Origin: a virus
Virus record (IMG/VR): IMGVR_UViG_3300027895_000005
Span: 1 to 64,000 of that record
Strand: one strand, 5' to 3'
Length of the DNA: 64,000 bases
Shown: positions 1 to 9,558 of the stretch, one piece after another
How positions within the stretch are numbered: position 1 is the first letter of the stretch
Layout: the number at the start of each line of letters is the position of its first letter
The notes under the pieces: generated by a model
Told to the model about the DNA's origin: nothing
What the model saw: only the letters and a program-made list of their open reading frames with translations
Database searches by the model: none
Translations under genes and position numbers: made by a program

Positions 1-150
1 GTCGTCAGCAACGTCTTTCGCCCTGACGTCCACGGCGATGACGGACAGTTGGGCGTTCTGCGTCTCGAGCAGGACGTTCGTTGTCTTGAGTTCCGCGAGG
101 ATCTGTCCGAGGATCGTTTCCGCATTCAGGTCTTCGACGTCGGCCGGCAT
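1..150 (-). CDS. Hypothetical protein, 5' part only (runs off the left edge)
   Basis: The open frame starts with ATG at 150 on the minus strand, behind a GAGGAG ribosome site, and continues past the window edge, so only the first 50 residues are visible. They begin MPADVEDLNAE and look like an amphipathic helix or coiled coil. It is the last visible gene of the leftward late block, 13 bases after the sedolisin stop. No family is recognisable from this fragment. Confidence 0.6.
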   Translation of the reverse strand, partial: MPADVEDLNAETILGQILAELKTTNVLLETQNAQLSVIAVDVRAKDVADD

Positions 151-163
151 GGTTTCTCCTCAC

Positions 164-1666
164 TCAGGGTGTCGCCGTTACGGGCGTCGGCAACGTCACC
201 CCCAACGCCGCAAGGATCGCCTGCACCGCCGGACCGGCAGAGACGATCAGCGCCGCCAGACCCGCCCAGTTCTTCTGACCCGCGAGCGCGATCACCTGGA
301 GCACCAGCGGGTAGTCTTGCGCCAGCAGTCCAGCCAGGACCGGCCAGTTGACCGTGTGCGGCGACAGTCCGGCCGACTTCATGACCGAGTGCATCGCGTG
401 GAACTCTTCCTCAACTTCCACGACGGACGCACCGGGCGCCGGTTCGGAGACAACCCCATAGGTCCCAGCGGGAATCGCGACGGGGGCGGCGAAGGTCACG
501 CGGGTGCCTTTGCTGATCGCACGGGCGAATTTCAGGTGAAACAGGTCCGTCGAGACGGGAGGCGGCGGAGGGGGAGGCGGTGGAGGCGGGGACGCCGTCC
601 CTGACAGCACGGCAAAGAGTGTCGCCAGCGGCCGGCCAAGCCCGCTGCACGGGTCAGGTCCCACAGTGGCGCTGTACGCGCCGTTGTTGCCGTTGGTGAC
701 GTCGTAGAACGACTTCGGGTTGGCCCACAACAGCGGGTTGACCGCTGCGAGTACGGGAAGGCCAGCCTTGACGCGTGCCCCGTTGACCGCACCCAGAAAG
801 CCGGCCATCATCGGTGCCACGGCCGACGTCCCGCCGATGACCTGCCATGTGCCGTTGATGACGACGTTGTGCCCCGTGTTGGGGTCGGCGTTCATCGCCA
901 TGTCGGGAACCATCCTCCCGCTGCCCTGGCTGTTGGCCGGCTGCCACGAGGGAGCGGGAACCAGCCTGGAGAACCCCCCTCCCGTGCCTTCACCGTCGCC
1001 GTTGTTCCATACCGTTTCGAGGCCGCCAACCGGCAACGAGGTTCCACCGCAACCGACGACGCCCCCTCTGCTTGCCGGACAATCCACGGTCGGCGCGTTC
1101 TCCCCGTCTCCGGAGTCGTTATCCCCCGACGCGGCGCAGATCGGGTAAGGCGCTGCGACCACGGCCATGTCAAGCGCGGTCAGGTCGCCTGCGTCCCACT
1201 GAGGCTCGCCCGAACCCCAGGACCATGAACCAGCGAAGACCCCACCCAGAGAGGTAGCGTAATTGATGCAGTCCGCGAACGCCGCCCCGCTGTTGGGTCC
1301 GTAGACGATCAGGATCTTCGCTGCCGTCCCGGAAATGTAGCTCCAGAACTCAGCGGCCTTCTGCCAATCCAATCCTACTTCGCCGTCCGCGTCCGACGGA
1401 GAGTCGTCGGCGCCCGCGAGCAGGTGCGTGGTAATGATCGGCGCAGGCATGCCCGACTTCGTTGCCCACAAGGGCACGTCAGAGGGGTAGAAACGGCCCC
1501 CTAACTCGAACAGAACAATCGTCCCTTCGCTGACCGGAATCCCCACCGGCATACCATAAACGGCCGGCATCTGCCCCGGCTCGTAGTTCTGCGATGCGGC
1601 GCGCGGACGGCGTATCTTGGAGTCGATGCGGCGAATATGCGACTTTGCGAATGGTTTGAGGGTCAT
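164..1666 (-). CDS. S53 family peptidase (sedolisin/kumamolisin-like)
   Basis: A 500-residue protein with the full set of sedolisin marks. The Glu/Asp pair sits in EVGLD (E96, D100), the oxyanion Asp in ASGDND (D182), and the nucleophile Ser in GGTSAVAP (S281). There is a GGGFS block before it, and calcium-site motifs FYDVT and GPDPCSGLG after it. Family members are serine-carboxyl endopeptidases, often acid-active. The usual N-terminal prodomain and a signal peptide are both missing. After the catalytic domain come an 11-proline linker and a roughly 130-residue hydrophobic tail of unknown fold. The start at 1666 follows GGGGAAAT and overlaps the upstream stop (TAATG). It lies beside small membrane and coiled-coil genes, so a role in host lysis or in piercing a protein-rich envelope is likely but is inference. 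A virion-borne protease is the alternative. Confidence 0.9.
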   Translation of the reverse strand: MTLKPFAKSHIRRIDSKIRRPRAASQNYEPGQMPAVYGMPVGIPVSEGTIVLFELGGRFYPSDVPLWATKSGMPAPIITTHLLAGADDSPSDADGEVGLDWQKAAEFWSYISGTAAKILIVYGPNSGAAFADCINYATSLGGVFAGSWSWGSGEPQWDAGDLTALDMAVVAAPYPICAASGDNDSGDGENAPTVDCPASRGGVVGCGGTSLPVGGLETVWNNGDGEGTGGGFSRLVPAPSWQPANSQGSGRMVPDMAMNADPNTGHNVVINGTWQVIGGTSAVAPMMAGFLGAVNGARVKAGLPVLAAVNPLLWANPKSFYDVTNGNNGAYSATVGPDPCSGLGRPLATLFAVLSGTASPPPPPPPPPPPVSTDLFHLKFARAISKGTRVTFAAPVAIPAGTYGVVSEPAPGASVVEVEEEFHAMHSVMKSAGLSPHTVNWPVLAGLLAQDYPLVLQVIALAGQKNWAGLAALIVSAGPAVQAILAALGVTLPTPVTATP

Positions 1667-1827
1667 TATTTCCCCATTGTTGTTACTGTTCCATCGGGCA
1701 TGACCACGCACGTCTGCCCGTTTTTCAGCATCTTCACCGGACCGCCCAGCACAACCGGGACCGGCACGGCCACTTCCCAGCCCTGCGTCTGGAGTTCGAC
1801 GATCTTGTCCGCCTGGACCTTGCTCAC
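1666..1827 (-). CDS. Small hypothetical protein before the sedolisin gene
   Basis: A 53-residue protein beginning (V/M)SKVQADKIVELQ. A GTG start at 1827 is preferred because GGTGAAG precedes it; an in-frame ATG at 1863 would overlap the upstream gene. Its stop is fused to the sedolisin start (TAATG), so the two are translationally coupled. The middle is a Val/Pro-rich strand (EVAVPVPVVLGG) and the C-terminus reads NGQTCVVMPDGTV, like a small beta domain. No known family was recognised. Confidence 0.55.
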   Translation of the reverse strand: MSKVQADKIVELQTQGWEVAVPVPVVLGGPVKMLKNGQTCVVMPDGTVTTMGK

Positions 1828-1843
1828 TTCTTCACCGCCGTGT

Positions 1844-2461
1844 TCAGTGCGCCTTGAAAGCAAACATCGCTATCGCCATCGCGACGGCCGCCAGCATACC
1901 GACGACGCCAATCAGCATTCCCCAGGCGTCCCCGGCACCCTTGCCTCTGCTCTCATAGGCGGTCATCCGTTGCTCGATGGTTCCCGTCCTCTCCTTCTGG
2001 TCGTCGATCTTGCCAACCAGGGCGTCCGTCTTGGCCTGTACAAGGTCCTGGAGCTTGACGATAGTTTCCGTGGTGGATTTCTCGCTCTTGTCGATGGCCT
2101 TCGCGTTGCTCTCGTCCTGCTTGGCGGCGGCTTCCTTCTGGGCGGCGAAGGCGGCGTCAACGGCAACCTTGTTGTCTCTGCTCTCGCGCTCGCTGCGAGT
2201 GTCCCGCTCCAGGAACTGCTTGGCAACGCTGTTGAATTTCTCCTCGTGAACCCTTCGCAACGTCTCTATCTTCTCATCAACGAGTCTGGGCAAGTTGCCC
2301 AACTGTTCGCGCTGGAGTTCGTTAGCTTTGTCCATGCCGTTGATGCGCGTCTCGATGAACTCCTTCAACATTGCTACTTCACGCAAGAGCGCTCTTGTCG
2401 TTAATTCCGTGGGGTCTGGGACCGGCACGGACCCGGTAGACAGCTTGTGTTCTTCCGGCAT
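1844..2461 (-). CDS. Coiled-coil protein with C-terminal membrane anchor
   Basis: A 205-residue protein. A long charged helix, with heptad-like Leu/Ala spacing from about residue 20 to 160, is followed by one hydrophobic span near residues 180-200 (WGMLIGVVGMLAAVAMAIAM) and a short basic tail. ATG 2461 is chosen because AGGAGAAAA precedes it; an ATG four codons upstream overlaps the stop of the 2470-2706 gene. Such helix-plus-anchor proteins often sit in phage lysis cassettes next to holins. That role is inferred from position only. Confidence 0.7.
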   Translation of the reverse strand: MPEEHKLSTGSVPVPDPTELTTRALLREVAMLKEFIETRINGMDKANELQREQLGNLPRLVDEKIETLRRVHEEKFNSVAKQFLERDTRSERESRDNKVAVDAAFAAQKEAAAKQDESNAKAIDKSEKSTTETIVKLQDLVQAKTDALVGKIDDQKERTGTIEQRMTAYESRGKGAGDAWGMLIGVVGMLAAVAMAIAMFAFKAH

Positions 2462-2469
2462 TTTTCTCC

Positions 2470-2706
2470 TCATGCACCGTCCTTCGGCCTCTGACGTTCC
2501 TTCTCCATCTCCTGAATCATCCGTTCCTCGAAAGCTACTCTTCTCGGCACCTCCGCAAGGGACGCCCTCACGGCGTCAATGGCCTTCTCCAGTACGTCCA
2601 GCCGTCTCTCGGCTTCCCTGGACCGCCGGTTGGCCCTAGACGACAGCCAGACAGCCGCAATGACGCACGCGGCGCTGGCGACGGCGAGCAGGAGCGCCTG
2701 GTCCAC
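2470..2706 (-). CDS. Small membrane protein with cytoplasmic helix
   Basis: A 78-residue protein starting at GTG 2706 behind GAGG. Residues 4-22 (LLLAVASAACVIAAVWLSS) form one membrane segment. The rest is a charged helix rich in Arg and Glu. It overlaps the next gene by a few bases, so it belongs to the same translational unit. The single-span-plus-helix layout fits a holin-like, antiholin or spanin-like accessory protein, but no signature decides between them. Confidence 0.65.
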   Translation of the reverse strand: MDQALLLAVASAACVIAAVWLSSRANRRSREAERRLDVLEKAIDAVRASLAEVPRRVAFEERMIQEMEKERQRPKDGA

Positions 2707-2713
2707 ACCTGCC

Positions 2714-2881
2714 TCACTGCAACGGCGCGCCGAACAGTTTCCAGCCCAGCAAGCCGAGCAGGACGAACAGCATCAAGTTGCCGCCCAGCATGCCGTAGTT
2801 GCCGCCGGCCACTTCGGCGCGGTTCCAGTACAGGCCGAAGAAAAACCACAACAGCATAATAACCCAGAACAAAATTCCCAT
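2714..2881 (-). CDS. Small two-span membrane protein, holin candidate
   Basis: A 55-residue frame that begins MGILFWVIMLLWFFF and ends WKLFGAPLQ. Two hydrophobic stretches (about 2-17 and 34-50) are joined by a short polar loop, RAEVAGGNYG. Size and topology match small class II holins. A purine-rich AAGGAAGGG lies about 14 bases before the ATG, a rather long spacing. It ends 7 bases before the start of the next small membrane gene. Holin function is inference from topology and neighbourhood. Confidence 0.6.
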   Translation of the reverse strand: MGILFWVIMLLWFFFGLYWNRAEVAGGNYGMLGGNLMLFVLLGLLGWKLFGAPLQ

Positions 2882-2914
2882 AGGCAGATGGATACCCTTC
2901 CTTTCACGAATAGT

Positions 2915-3403
2915 TTACGTGGGCGTTTGCTCGCTCTCTCCTGGTCTCATCTGGCTCTGCTGCCGCGGCCCCCTGCGGTTGGTTTCCGGAATGTTGTAAC
3001 GGCAGACGGTGCTCAGCTTCGCCAGGATCTCTTCCTTAGCCTTGTTCGCCGTCTCGTGCGTCTCGTCAATGGCGTCGGTCATTCTGGTAGTGGCCTGGTG
3101 GCGCAACTCCCTCTCGATGTCGCGCTCCTTGTGGCTGGCGTCCCACTGCTTTTCCACCAGCGCCATCTGCTGCTTCATGGCCGCTATCAGGTTGTCGCGG
3201 ATGGGGATGACCAGTTCCCGACCGATCCAGACCACCATTCTCCAGAGCCCGTACCCTCCCGCCACGATGATCATGCTTGCCAGGCCGAAAGTTTGTAAAA
3301 GGTTCGTCCAAACTTCCATCTCCGCCCCTAATTGCTCCGGATTCCGCAGAAACGCCAGCGCCGCCGTGACTCCGTTCGTGGGAGCCGTTTGAAGTTGGCC
3401 CAT
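2915..3403 (-). CDS. Hypothetical membrane-anchored coiled-coil protein
   Basis: The 162-residue form starts at ATG 3403 (MGQLQTAPTNGV), preceded by CCGAGG. The open frame extends further upstream, but there it runs antisense-like through the 3445-3747 gene. One membrane segment lies near residues 35-55 (GLASMIIVAGGYGLWRMVVW). It is followed by a basic-acidic helix (KQWDASHKERDIERELRHQ) and a polar tail. It is the first of four consecutive small membrane or coiled-coil genes that lead to the sedolisin gene, so it may be part of a lysis module. Confidence 0.65.
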   Translation of the reverse strand: MGQLQTAPTNGVTAALAFLRNPEQLGAEMEVWTNLLQTFGLASMIIVAGGYGLWRMVVWIGRELVIPIRDNLIAAMKQQMALVEKQWDASHKERDIERELRHQATTRMTDAIDETHETANKAKEEILAKLSTVCRYNIPETNRRGPRQQSQMRPGESEQTPT

Positions 3404-7668: not shown

Positions 7669-9558
7669 TCACCCCAGCAGCAACCCCGGAAACCACCAGT
7701 ACGACTGATCGAGCGGGGCAACTAGCGCTCCGCTTGTCCCGCCCGTCCACGAGTAGAGCAGCCCTTGCGGCGTCAGGAAATACCATCCGCCATATGCCGT
7801 GTTGCTGCCGTTGCCGCTCTGATACCAGTCCGCATCCATCCCGCGATAGGTTGTGTCCCACGCGCCCGTGAACTGCAAATCCAGTCCGGCAGGCGGCGTG
7901 TATCCCGCCGTCGCCAGCGCGAGGGGATTCTGCCAGAGGCTCGTGTCCATCAGAGCGACCGTCGCCGACGATTGCCCCGTAGCAGAGCCTTGTACGCCGT
8001 CCCACTGGTGCAGCGTGCCGTCAGCGAGGATGAAGTACCACCCGTAATGCGCCGTGTTCGACCCGTTGGCGCTTTGGAGCCAGTCGGCGTTGATGCCGTA
8101 CTGTACGGTGTACCAACGGCCGGTGTATTGCAGGTCAAGAGACTGTTCAACGCCAGCCAGGTAGGATGAGGCAGGCCAAGGAAATTCAACGGGTATGCTG
8201 GAAACGCCATTGGCAATCACCGTGAGGGAGTATGTTCCCGGGTTGAGTCCAGCGGGAACCATGAACTGTGTGCTGACGACCTGCGCGCCCGTGGCGACTA
8301 CACTGCTCCAGCCGTAGGTCGTCGCGAAGACCGTGTTGCCACCCGCTGACAGCGTGACCAGCGGGTAGTTGCTCGCCATCTGCGCGTCGTCGCCGTAGGA
8401 CGCCCCCTCGTTCCAGCCGTTGAGGTTCGTGCCCGCGACGGTGTACGACCCGTCCGCATCCGGCAACACGCTGGCGATGGTTGGAGCGACACCCGCAGGG
8501 GCCGCGCCTGCCTCGCTATAGACCACCAGTGAGTCAGTGATCCCGTCCGTCATGAGCACCTGACCCGTGGGCAGGAGCAGCATCCTCGCGGGGAAAGCCG
8601 GCTCGCCCGAGTAATCGCCTGGCGGCGTCGGGACGCTCGTGATGGTGTTGCTCGCAGGGTTGTACTCGAACACCTGCGAGGGCGCCGTGTATCCCGGCTG
8701 ATCGGCGATGAATAGGACATTGCCGTCTGGCAGTTCGGCCGCGGGCGCGTCGTCGGCCACATTACCACCCGGGATCGTCGGCCCCTGCGTCCAGGCGTTG
8801 CTCGCGGGGTTGTAGAGCCCTGTCTCGCCCGTCGCGCCGAGGAAGAACACCTGTCCGCTGTACAGCAGCATGGCCGGCCCGATCTCGGGTTGACTGCTGG
8901 CGAGCGCTGGCCCCTGTCCGGTCCAGGTCCACGTCCCCGACGTGGGCGAGTACACCTGTCCGTACTGCGGGTATCCCTCGACGTCGTAATCCAGCACGCC
9001 GCCGCCGGGCAGCTTCACCCACGTCTCCTCTTCGCCCGGATCGCCGCCAGCCTTGCTTCCCGTCTGGGTCCATGTGTTGCTCGCGGGCGCGTAGATCCAC
9101 GTCGTGGCATCGTGCGTGGACCCTGCCAGGACGTTGCCGTCCGGCAGGACCATCAGTTCGCCGTCGCCAAAGGAAGCCTCCGGGAATGGTGCAATGGCTG
9201 TCCAGGCGTTGCTCTGCACGTGGTAGATTTCCCCGTCCGGGGTGTTATCCCCGCCCGCGCTACTGAACTCGCCGCCGAGGAACATCACATCGCCATCGGG
9301 GAGCACAACCGAACCGTAGGAGTTCCGCGAGTTGATGCTGCTCGCCAGCGTGGACCAGACGCCGTTGACATAACTCCCATTCACGGGCGTCAGTTCGTAC
9401 CACGTCGTCGAACCGAACGCGGCGCTCTGCGCCATGACGTCGCCATTGGTCAACAGCAGCATGGTGCTGACGGCCGATGGTGGCGCATTCGCCAGCAGTG
9501 TGTAGCCAGCAAGGGCGATACGATCTTCGAGGGTTTCCAGGTTCGGTCGAGTCGTCAT
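7669..9558 (-). CDS. Kelch/galactose-oxidase-like beta-propeller protein
   Basis: A 629-residue protein. Its N-terminus MTTRPNLETLEDRIAL carries the planctomycete LExLEDR motif that opens many secreted proteins of that phylum. Residues about 15-350 hold kelch-type repeats (DGDVMFLGG, LPDGNVLAGS, LPGGGVLDYD, YSGQVFFLGA, LPDGNVLFIAD). An Ig/TIG-like domain follows (APTIASVLP to TYSLTVIANGVSS). Two copies of a roughly 75-residue C-terminal repeat end in GWYF-x-L-x-x-DGTLHQWDG and GWYFLTPQGLLYSWTGG. The start overlaps the upstream stop (ATGA) behind GGGGGAAG. It may bind host glycans as a fibre tip. The gene seems borrowed from a planctomycete host. Enzymatic oxidase activity is not supported, since copper ligands were not identified. 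Confidence 0.75.
   Translation of the reverse strand: MTTRPNLETLEDRIALAGYTLLANAPPSAVSTMLLLTNGDVMAQSAAFGSTTWYELTPVNGSYVNGVWSTLASSINSRNSYGSVVLPDGDVMFLGGEFSSAGGDNTPDGEIYHVQSNAWTAIAPFPEASFGDGELMVLPDGNVLAGSTHDATTWIYAPASNTWTQTGSKAGGDPGEEETWVKLPGGGVLDYDVEGYPQYGQVYSPTSGTWTWTGQGPALASSQPEIGPAMLLYSGQVFFLGATGETGLYNPASNAWTQGPTIPGGNVADDAPAAELPDGNVLFIADQPGYTAPSQVFEYNPASNTITSVPTPPGDYSGEPAFPARMLLLPTGQVLMTDGITDSLVVYSEAGAAPAGVAPTIASVLPDADGSYTVAGTNLNGWNEGASYGDDAQMASNYPLVTLSAGGNTVFATTYGWSSVVATGAQVVSTQFMVPAGLNPGTYSLTVIANGVSSIPVEFPWPASSYLAGVEQSLDLQYTGRWYTVQYGINADWLQSANGSNTAHYGWYFILADGTLHQWDGVQGSATGQSSATVALMDTSLWQNPLALATAGYTPPAGLDLQFTGAWDTTYRGMDADWYQSGNGSNTAYGGWYFLTPQGLLYSWTGGTSGALVAPLDQSYWWFPGLLLG

Follow-up and report, generated by a model that had tools for sequence, protein, structure and literature searches.

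Do phages use proteases to breach the envelopes of their hosts? The question is raised by a gene for an S53 (sedolisin-type) peptidase in the virus record IMGVR_UViG_3300027895_000005. The window, by which we mean the whole stretch of 64,000 nucleotides that was analysed, is the first 64 kb of this 105,489-bp record. The original prediction, made from the sequence alone, placed the gene in the lysis cassette of a planctomycete phage and had its product serve lysis or entry where a peptidoglycan hydrolase would be expected. Our preferred reading, to which we assign a probability of roughly one half, has this prodomain-less sedolisin synthesised in the cytoplasm and set free at lysis, as an accessory protease that acts late on the envelope. 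The frequent placement of such a slimmed-down S53 enzyme beside lysis genes suggests that it serves phages to cleave proteinaceous layers of the host's envelope.

A prodomain-less peptidase of the kumamolisin type

The protease gene lies at the end of the late operon and encodes 500 amino acids if translation starts at an ATG, or 515 if it starts at a GTG 15 codons upstream. The gene and its parts are as follows:

164-1666, minus strand: S53 (sedolisin/kumamolisin-type) serine-carboxyl peptidase, 500 amino acids, identified by phmmer, fold and conserved tetrad
1559-1666, minus strand: first 36 residues, whose AKSHIRR motif aligns to the kumamolisin pro-linker (ARPHFRL)
1379-1381, minus strand: codon of catalytic Glu96, an invariant column
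1367-1369, minus strand: codon of catalytic Asp100, an invariant column
1121-1123, minus strand: codon of oxyanion Asp182
824-826, minus strand: codon of nucleophile Ser281 (in GGTSAVAP), an invariant column
437-550, minus strand: small domain beyond a poly-proline linker
167-412, minus strand: C-terminal five-helix hydrophobic tail

In phmmer searches of PDB the protein matched kumamolisin (E = 8.4e-47), kumamolisin-As (1.6e-45) and sedolisin (1.9e-12). Its AlphaFold2 model, with a predicted local distance difference test score (pLDDT) of 84.5, has the subtilisin-like S53 fold with the long kumamolisin-type core, and the closest PDB structure found by Foldseek is kumamolisin-As (1sn7; template modelling score 0.84 over the target). 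In an alignment of 52 homologues E96, D100 and S281 never vary and D182 is conserved to at least 90%, and all four residues are invariant in a 46-row viral alignment; the family and the catalytic set had thus been named exactly right, and structure prediction returned the kumamolisin fold. The C-terminal motif D-x-x-x-G-x-N ... D-x-x-x-G-x-G, which we take to be a calcium site, is also present, with D322, G326, N328, G336 and D338 at least 90% conserved and G342 and G344 invariant. No known peptidoglycan-hydrolase domain was found in the protein by phmmer, Pfam or Foldseek, and it is predicted to be an acid protease.

The reported lack of a prodomain and signal peptide was borne out. The prodomain family PF09286 had no match in the whole record, and the N-terminus, read directly, contains no signal peptide, its first 36 residues being polar and basic. 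In the phmmer alignment AKSHIRR...RRPRAASQNYEP is paired with ARPHFRL...SAAPTAYTP of pro-kumamolisin, the linker ahead of the mature enzyme; this linker carries the primary autocleavage site. This short form is common among the viral S53 proteins: in 52 non-redundant short-N-terminus viral S53 proteins (window included), only 8-60 residues precede the mature domain, and PF09286 was found in just three of 50 related viral records. A [PSTR][YHNQ]-hydrophobic-[KR] motif occurs in 34 of these 52 N-termini versus 4.8 expected in shuffles, a count that is descriptive because the motif was defined after inspection of the sequences. Most of the 52 proteins keep just a pro-linker remnant.

The small domain beyond the poly-proline linker is common to the closest relatives (phmmer E = 1e-6 to the protein of contig L013) and visible in the 52-sequence alignment. 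The helical tail (AlphaFold helices at residues 420-488, pLDDT 60-85) is confined to the window protein. We considered that it might be a fusion of a small protein encoded separately in relatives and rejected this, the best match being an 88-amino-acid gene of L012 at E = 0.33. Compared with kumamolisin and kumamolisin-As, the window protein shares the catalytic-domain sequence, the fold, the tetrad and the pro-linker remnant, but it lacks the prodomain and signal peptide, carries a Pro-rich linker, a small domain and a helical tail in addition, and is encoded by a phage.

Lysis genes beside S53 in other phages

A single-sequence scan of IMG/VR viral contigs with the window protein returned no relatives, and a family-alignment search found at least 116 uncultured viral contigs that encode them. 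Eighty of these relatives were fetched, and 68 non-redundant loci were examined for context. The closest, from L012, L013 and L014, are 56-62% identical to the window protein and group with it in a fully supported clade. The terminase large subunit (TerL; one PHROG model) was detected in 21 of 50 related records, these three included.

No S53 gene was found among 50,697 cultured-phage records (queries were the window sequence and that of L064), and PHROGs searched with the window protein gave no S53 match; current lysis annotation would therefore miss the family. In BFVD the sole convincing S53-fold matches from viruses are giant-virus proteins (Barrevirus, Homavirus, Terrestrivirus), which have the fold in common with the window protein but belong to eukaryotic viruses, are 520-970 amino acids long, are only 22-33% identical and lie in no lysis cassette. 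No paper that treats S53 peptidases in the context of phage lysis, or as auxiliary genes of viruses, turned up in an open-access library.

Neighbourhoods were read by eye and their genes confirmed through PHROGs or Pfam, with the following gene orders:

L019: S53, GH25, transmembrane gene
L047: amidase, two-transmembrane gene, S53
L062 and L079: S53, then LysA (phrog_317, E < 1e-100)
L064: S53, LysA, LysB, four-transmembrane gene
L063: S53, amidase
L069: r1t holin, SNase, S53
L076: S53, amidase/holin
L017, L023, L045, L049, L054 and L070: endolysin-type genes also near S53

By eye L018 reads S53, lysozyme, transmembrane gene and lipoprotein, its lysozyme-like gene having no PHROG match. The amidase/holin gene of L076 (11092-12201) is a single open reading frame with an amidase-like N-terminus and, in the same frame, a C-terminal r1t-type holin domain, an apparent endolysin-holin fusion.

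An endolysin or holin lies within three genes of S53 at about 14 of the 68 loci, a lower bound because annotation is partial. Among 11 contigs with a lysis domain detected in six-frame searches, that domain is no more than 1.5 kb from S53 in five (P ~2e-4 under random placement; long tape-measure-like SLT matches were removed by hand). The lysis-adjacent state is scattered on the S53 tree and well-supported branches force at least six changes of it, so the association is recurrent.

Several observations weigh against a lysis role. At about 54 of the 68 loci no lysis gene was recognised up to three genes away, and some S53 genes adjoin glycosyltransferase, tail or packaging genes instead. Lysis families also occur 6-7 genes from S53, with 5 in this control against about 14 near S53 (top 25). 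There is no certain lysis gene in the window's own clade. Small transmembrane genes, which had been read as marking a cassette, are a weak marker: they are about equally common near S53 and 5-7 genes away (17% versus 14%, p = 0.23). The proposed lysis-cassette position therefore stands by comparison, S53 adjoining GH25, amidase, LysA/LysB and holin genes in relatives. The idea that the protease replaces a hydrolase gains no support from the comparison: in the recognisable cassettes of relatives S53 accompanies an endolysin; we conclude that phage S53 proteases usually accompany the endolysin rather than replace it.

Two side observations concern these neighbourhoods and relatives. HslV-like peptidase and glycosyltransferase genes recur beside S53 in some phage groups (L049, 8977-9420; L015-L016; others). 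A prodomain-less S53 protein encoded on a replicon of Rhizobium sp. AB2/73 (L008, 944-2137) nests inside the viral S53 sequences and is perhaps a phage-derived gene kept by the host; it resembles the window protein in lacking a prodomain but differs in lying on a large bacterial replicon (a plasmid), next to transporter genes.

Role of the protease and competing readings

In textbook phage lysis, membrane proteins and peptidoglycan hydrolases are joined by spanins or lipid esterases for outer layers. An accessory lysis enzyme acting on a layer other than peptidoglycan has a precedent in LysB (review PMC6116114). S53 heads a cassette of this mycobacteriophage type (LysA, LysB, holin) in L062, L064 and L079; unlike LysB it is a protease and not an esterase, and no S53 gene was found in the cultured phages searched. 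The S53 family and phage lysis are each already known; what would be new, as not found in the libraries and papers searched, is a prodomain-less S53 enzyme that recurs in phage lysis cassettes.

An accessory envelope protease could work as follows. The gene lies at the end of the late operon and would be transcribed late. In the neutral cytoplasm its product may do no damage, since serine-carboxyl peptidases are active under acid conditions and the pro-linker may fill the active site. Small membrane proteins would then open the membrane and let the protease out, as they do endolysins. Outside, it would cut protein layers beyond the reach of peptidoglycan hydrolases, such as an S-layer or outer-membrane or wall-linked proteins, and in phages with a recognisable cassette, where the two genes are co-located, it would do so beside the endolysin. 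If this is true, a recurrent cassette protease would add a lysis class aimed at envelope protein layers and explain how phages exit from hosts with strong protein coats. A broader claim, which we put forward only tentatively, is that prodomain-less sedolisins form a widespread, undescribed lysis class of pH-gated, cytoplasm-made envelope proteases that are released with or without an endolysin, one group being paired with secreted heme-c proteins and having no recognisable peptidoglycan hydrolase.

That pairing lies across the ends of the record. About 141 bp are common to both ends (window 1-150, record 105349-105489) with one 2-bp indel, and the record therefore probably represents a nearly complete genome of about 105.35 kb joined into a circle; since the window begins at the contig's first base, genes downstream of S53 carry on at the record's far end; the database classification does not assign end repeats to it. 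The feature concerned is:

record 100105-103221 (L092, 5105-8221), outside the window: genes g175 and g172, a secreted CxxCH pair beside S53, with homologues of both in nine further S53 phages

g175 (record 101608-103221) is 2.3 kb from S53 across the contig join. Proteins of its family mostly bear signal peptides, have an invariant CxxCH motif and occur in ten S53 phages (window, L012-L014, L020, L029, L052, L073, L075 and L077), all of which encode a second secreted single-CxxCH protein nearby (g172 in the window's record). The pair is missing from all other S53 loci, L074 having only a two-CxxCH protein. All ten pairs lie within 3.7 kb of S53 (P ~2e-10, independence assumed), and the S53 tree requires six changes in presence of the pair, so that heme-motif genes have come to accompany S53 genes of different lineages. 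Pattern scans in the reverse direction for g175-bearing viral contigs returned only contigs already known, a one-sided test. The motifs suggest that these proteins attach heme and form a phage-encoded cytochrome-like pair; g175 matched no Pfam family and no PDB fold, and its model is modest (pLDDT 70).

These constant partners, found in ten of ten phages of the window's clade, speak for an alternative that we consider unlikely, namely that the protease together with both secreted heme-c-motif proteins makes up a lysogenic-conversion or auxiliary module serving the host or prophage, for example in nutrition or envelope redox. The integrase in the record, which makes the phage probably temperate, fits this too, but the protease, in contrast to its heme-c neighbours, carries no signal for export, and other phages place S53 in lysis cassettes that have no heme genes. 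Somewhat less likely still is a virion-associated protease used at entry to pierce a proteinaceous surface. S53 does lie between tail and lysis genes in several contigs (L064, L069, L023), and the C-terminal extra domain and helical tail of the window protein could anchor it; yet no recognisable tail gene is next to S53 in the window and most homologues are without these extra parts. It is improbable that the protease acts inside the cell, in host takeover or in processing phage proteins: its lack of an export signal and the packaging or HslV-like peptidase genes beside some relatives would suit such a role, but the S53 enzymes known so far are secreted and work in acid surroundings, and the phage encodes a separate head maturation protease. 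A chance host gene or contig artefact, conceivable given how common S53 genes are in soil bacteria, is largely refuted by the fully supported clade with three S53 proteins from terminase-bearing contigs, the catalytic residues retained across 52 sequences and the fit of the gene to the phage codon model.

The late region of the window

Gene calls come from a codon model built for this analysis. The late genes are read on the minus strand, starting at about 52 kb and reaching base 1, and resume at the record's far end. Those next to the protease are:

1-150, minus strand: g1, an incomplete copy of the late gene that follows, which is intact as g181 (record 105284-105487)
1844-2461, minus strand: g4, coiled coil with a C-terminal transmembrane anchor (at residue 176), 205 amino acids; homologues in S53 phages L020, L074 and L075 by profile search
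2470-2706, minus strand: g5, N-terminal transmembrane segment and coiled coil, 78 amino acids; weak matches to phrog_1350 (E = 8e-4) and phrog_214 (E = 2e-3)
2714-2881, minus strand: g6, two transmembrane segments and a glycine-containing loop, 55 amino acids, holin-like topology; similar proteins in L014, L018, L030, L043 and L075
2915-3403, minus strand: g7, weak transmembrane segment and coiled coil by prediction, 162 amino acids

The four small membrane or coiled-coil genes noted beside the protease are thus present as g4-g7, all on its strand, and a 53-amino-acid open reading frame (g3) is located between g4 and the protease gene. Candidate holins are g5, by its weak match to phrog_1350, and g6, by its topology, and g5 is also a candidate spanin by a weak Rz-like match (E = 2e-3).

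No peptidoglycan-hydrolase family was found in the cassette or in the rest of the record, either by Pfam searches of nearly all open reading frames of at least 100 amino acids (a few of 100-132 were left out) or by six-frame searches for Amidase_2, GH25, Phage_lysozyme, SLT, M15 and CHAP, profiles that detect known hydrolase families only. This agrees with the original prediction, which had also named a conventional endolysin elsewhere in the genome as a finding that would refute it. What would speak for a protease instead of an endolysin in the window is solely this absence of a profile match.

A planctomycete host is plausible from the LEDR-type N-terminus of a Kelch-repeat protein within the late block (window 7669-9558), which we take to be that of planctomycete exported proteins, together with the secreted CxxCH proteins and an overall impression. 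The terminase has its nearest counterparts in Thermobifida and Streptomyces phages (41-52% identity), a kinship that gives little information on the host, and searches of g14 and g175 against plasmids were uninformative for host assignment. Planctomycetes possess a peptidoglycan wall (PMC4432640), and the host wall alone therefore does not explain the missing endolysin.

Profile searches of the 29.6-62.7 kb stretch identified the terminase large subunit, a Mu-type portal, the head maturation protease and the integrase. In the same scan (window 29582-62667) one late-region protein matched an ADP-ribosyltransferase domain (PF03496, E = 3e-14) and two others matched sigma-70 region 4. At the record's other end, the adjacent and unrelated small late proteins g180 and g181 (record 104816-105487) end in near-identical C-terminal tails, QPGAVTTH and VPGAVSTH.

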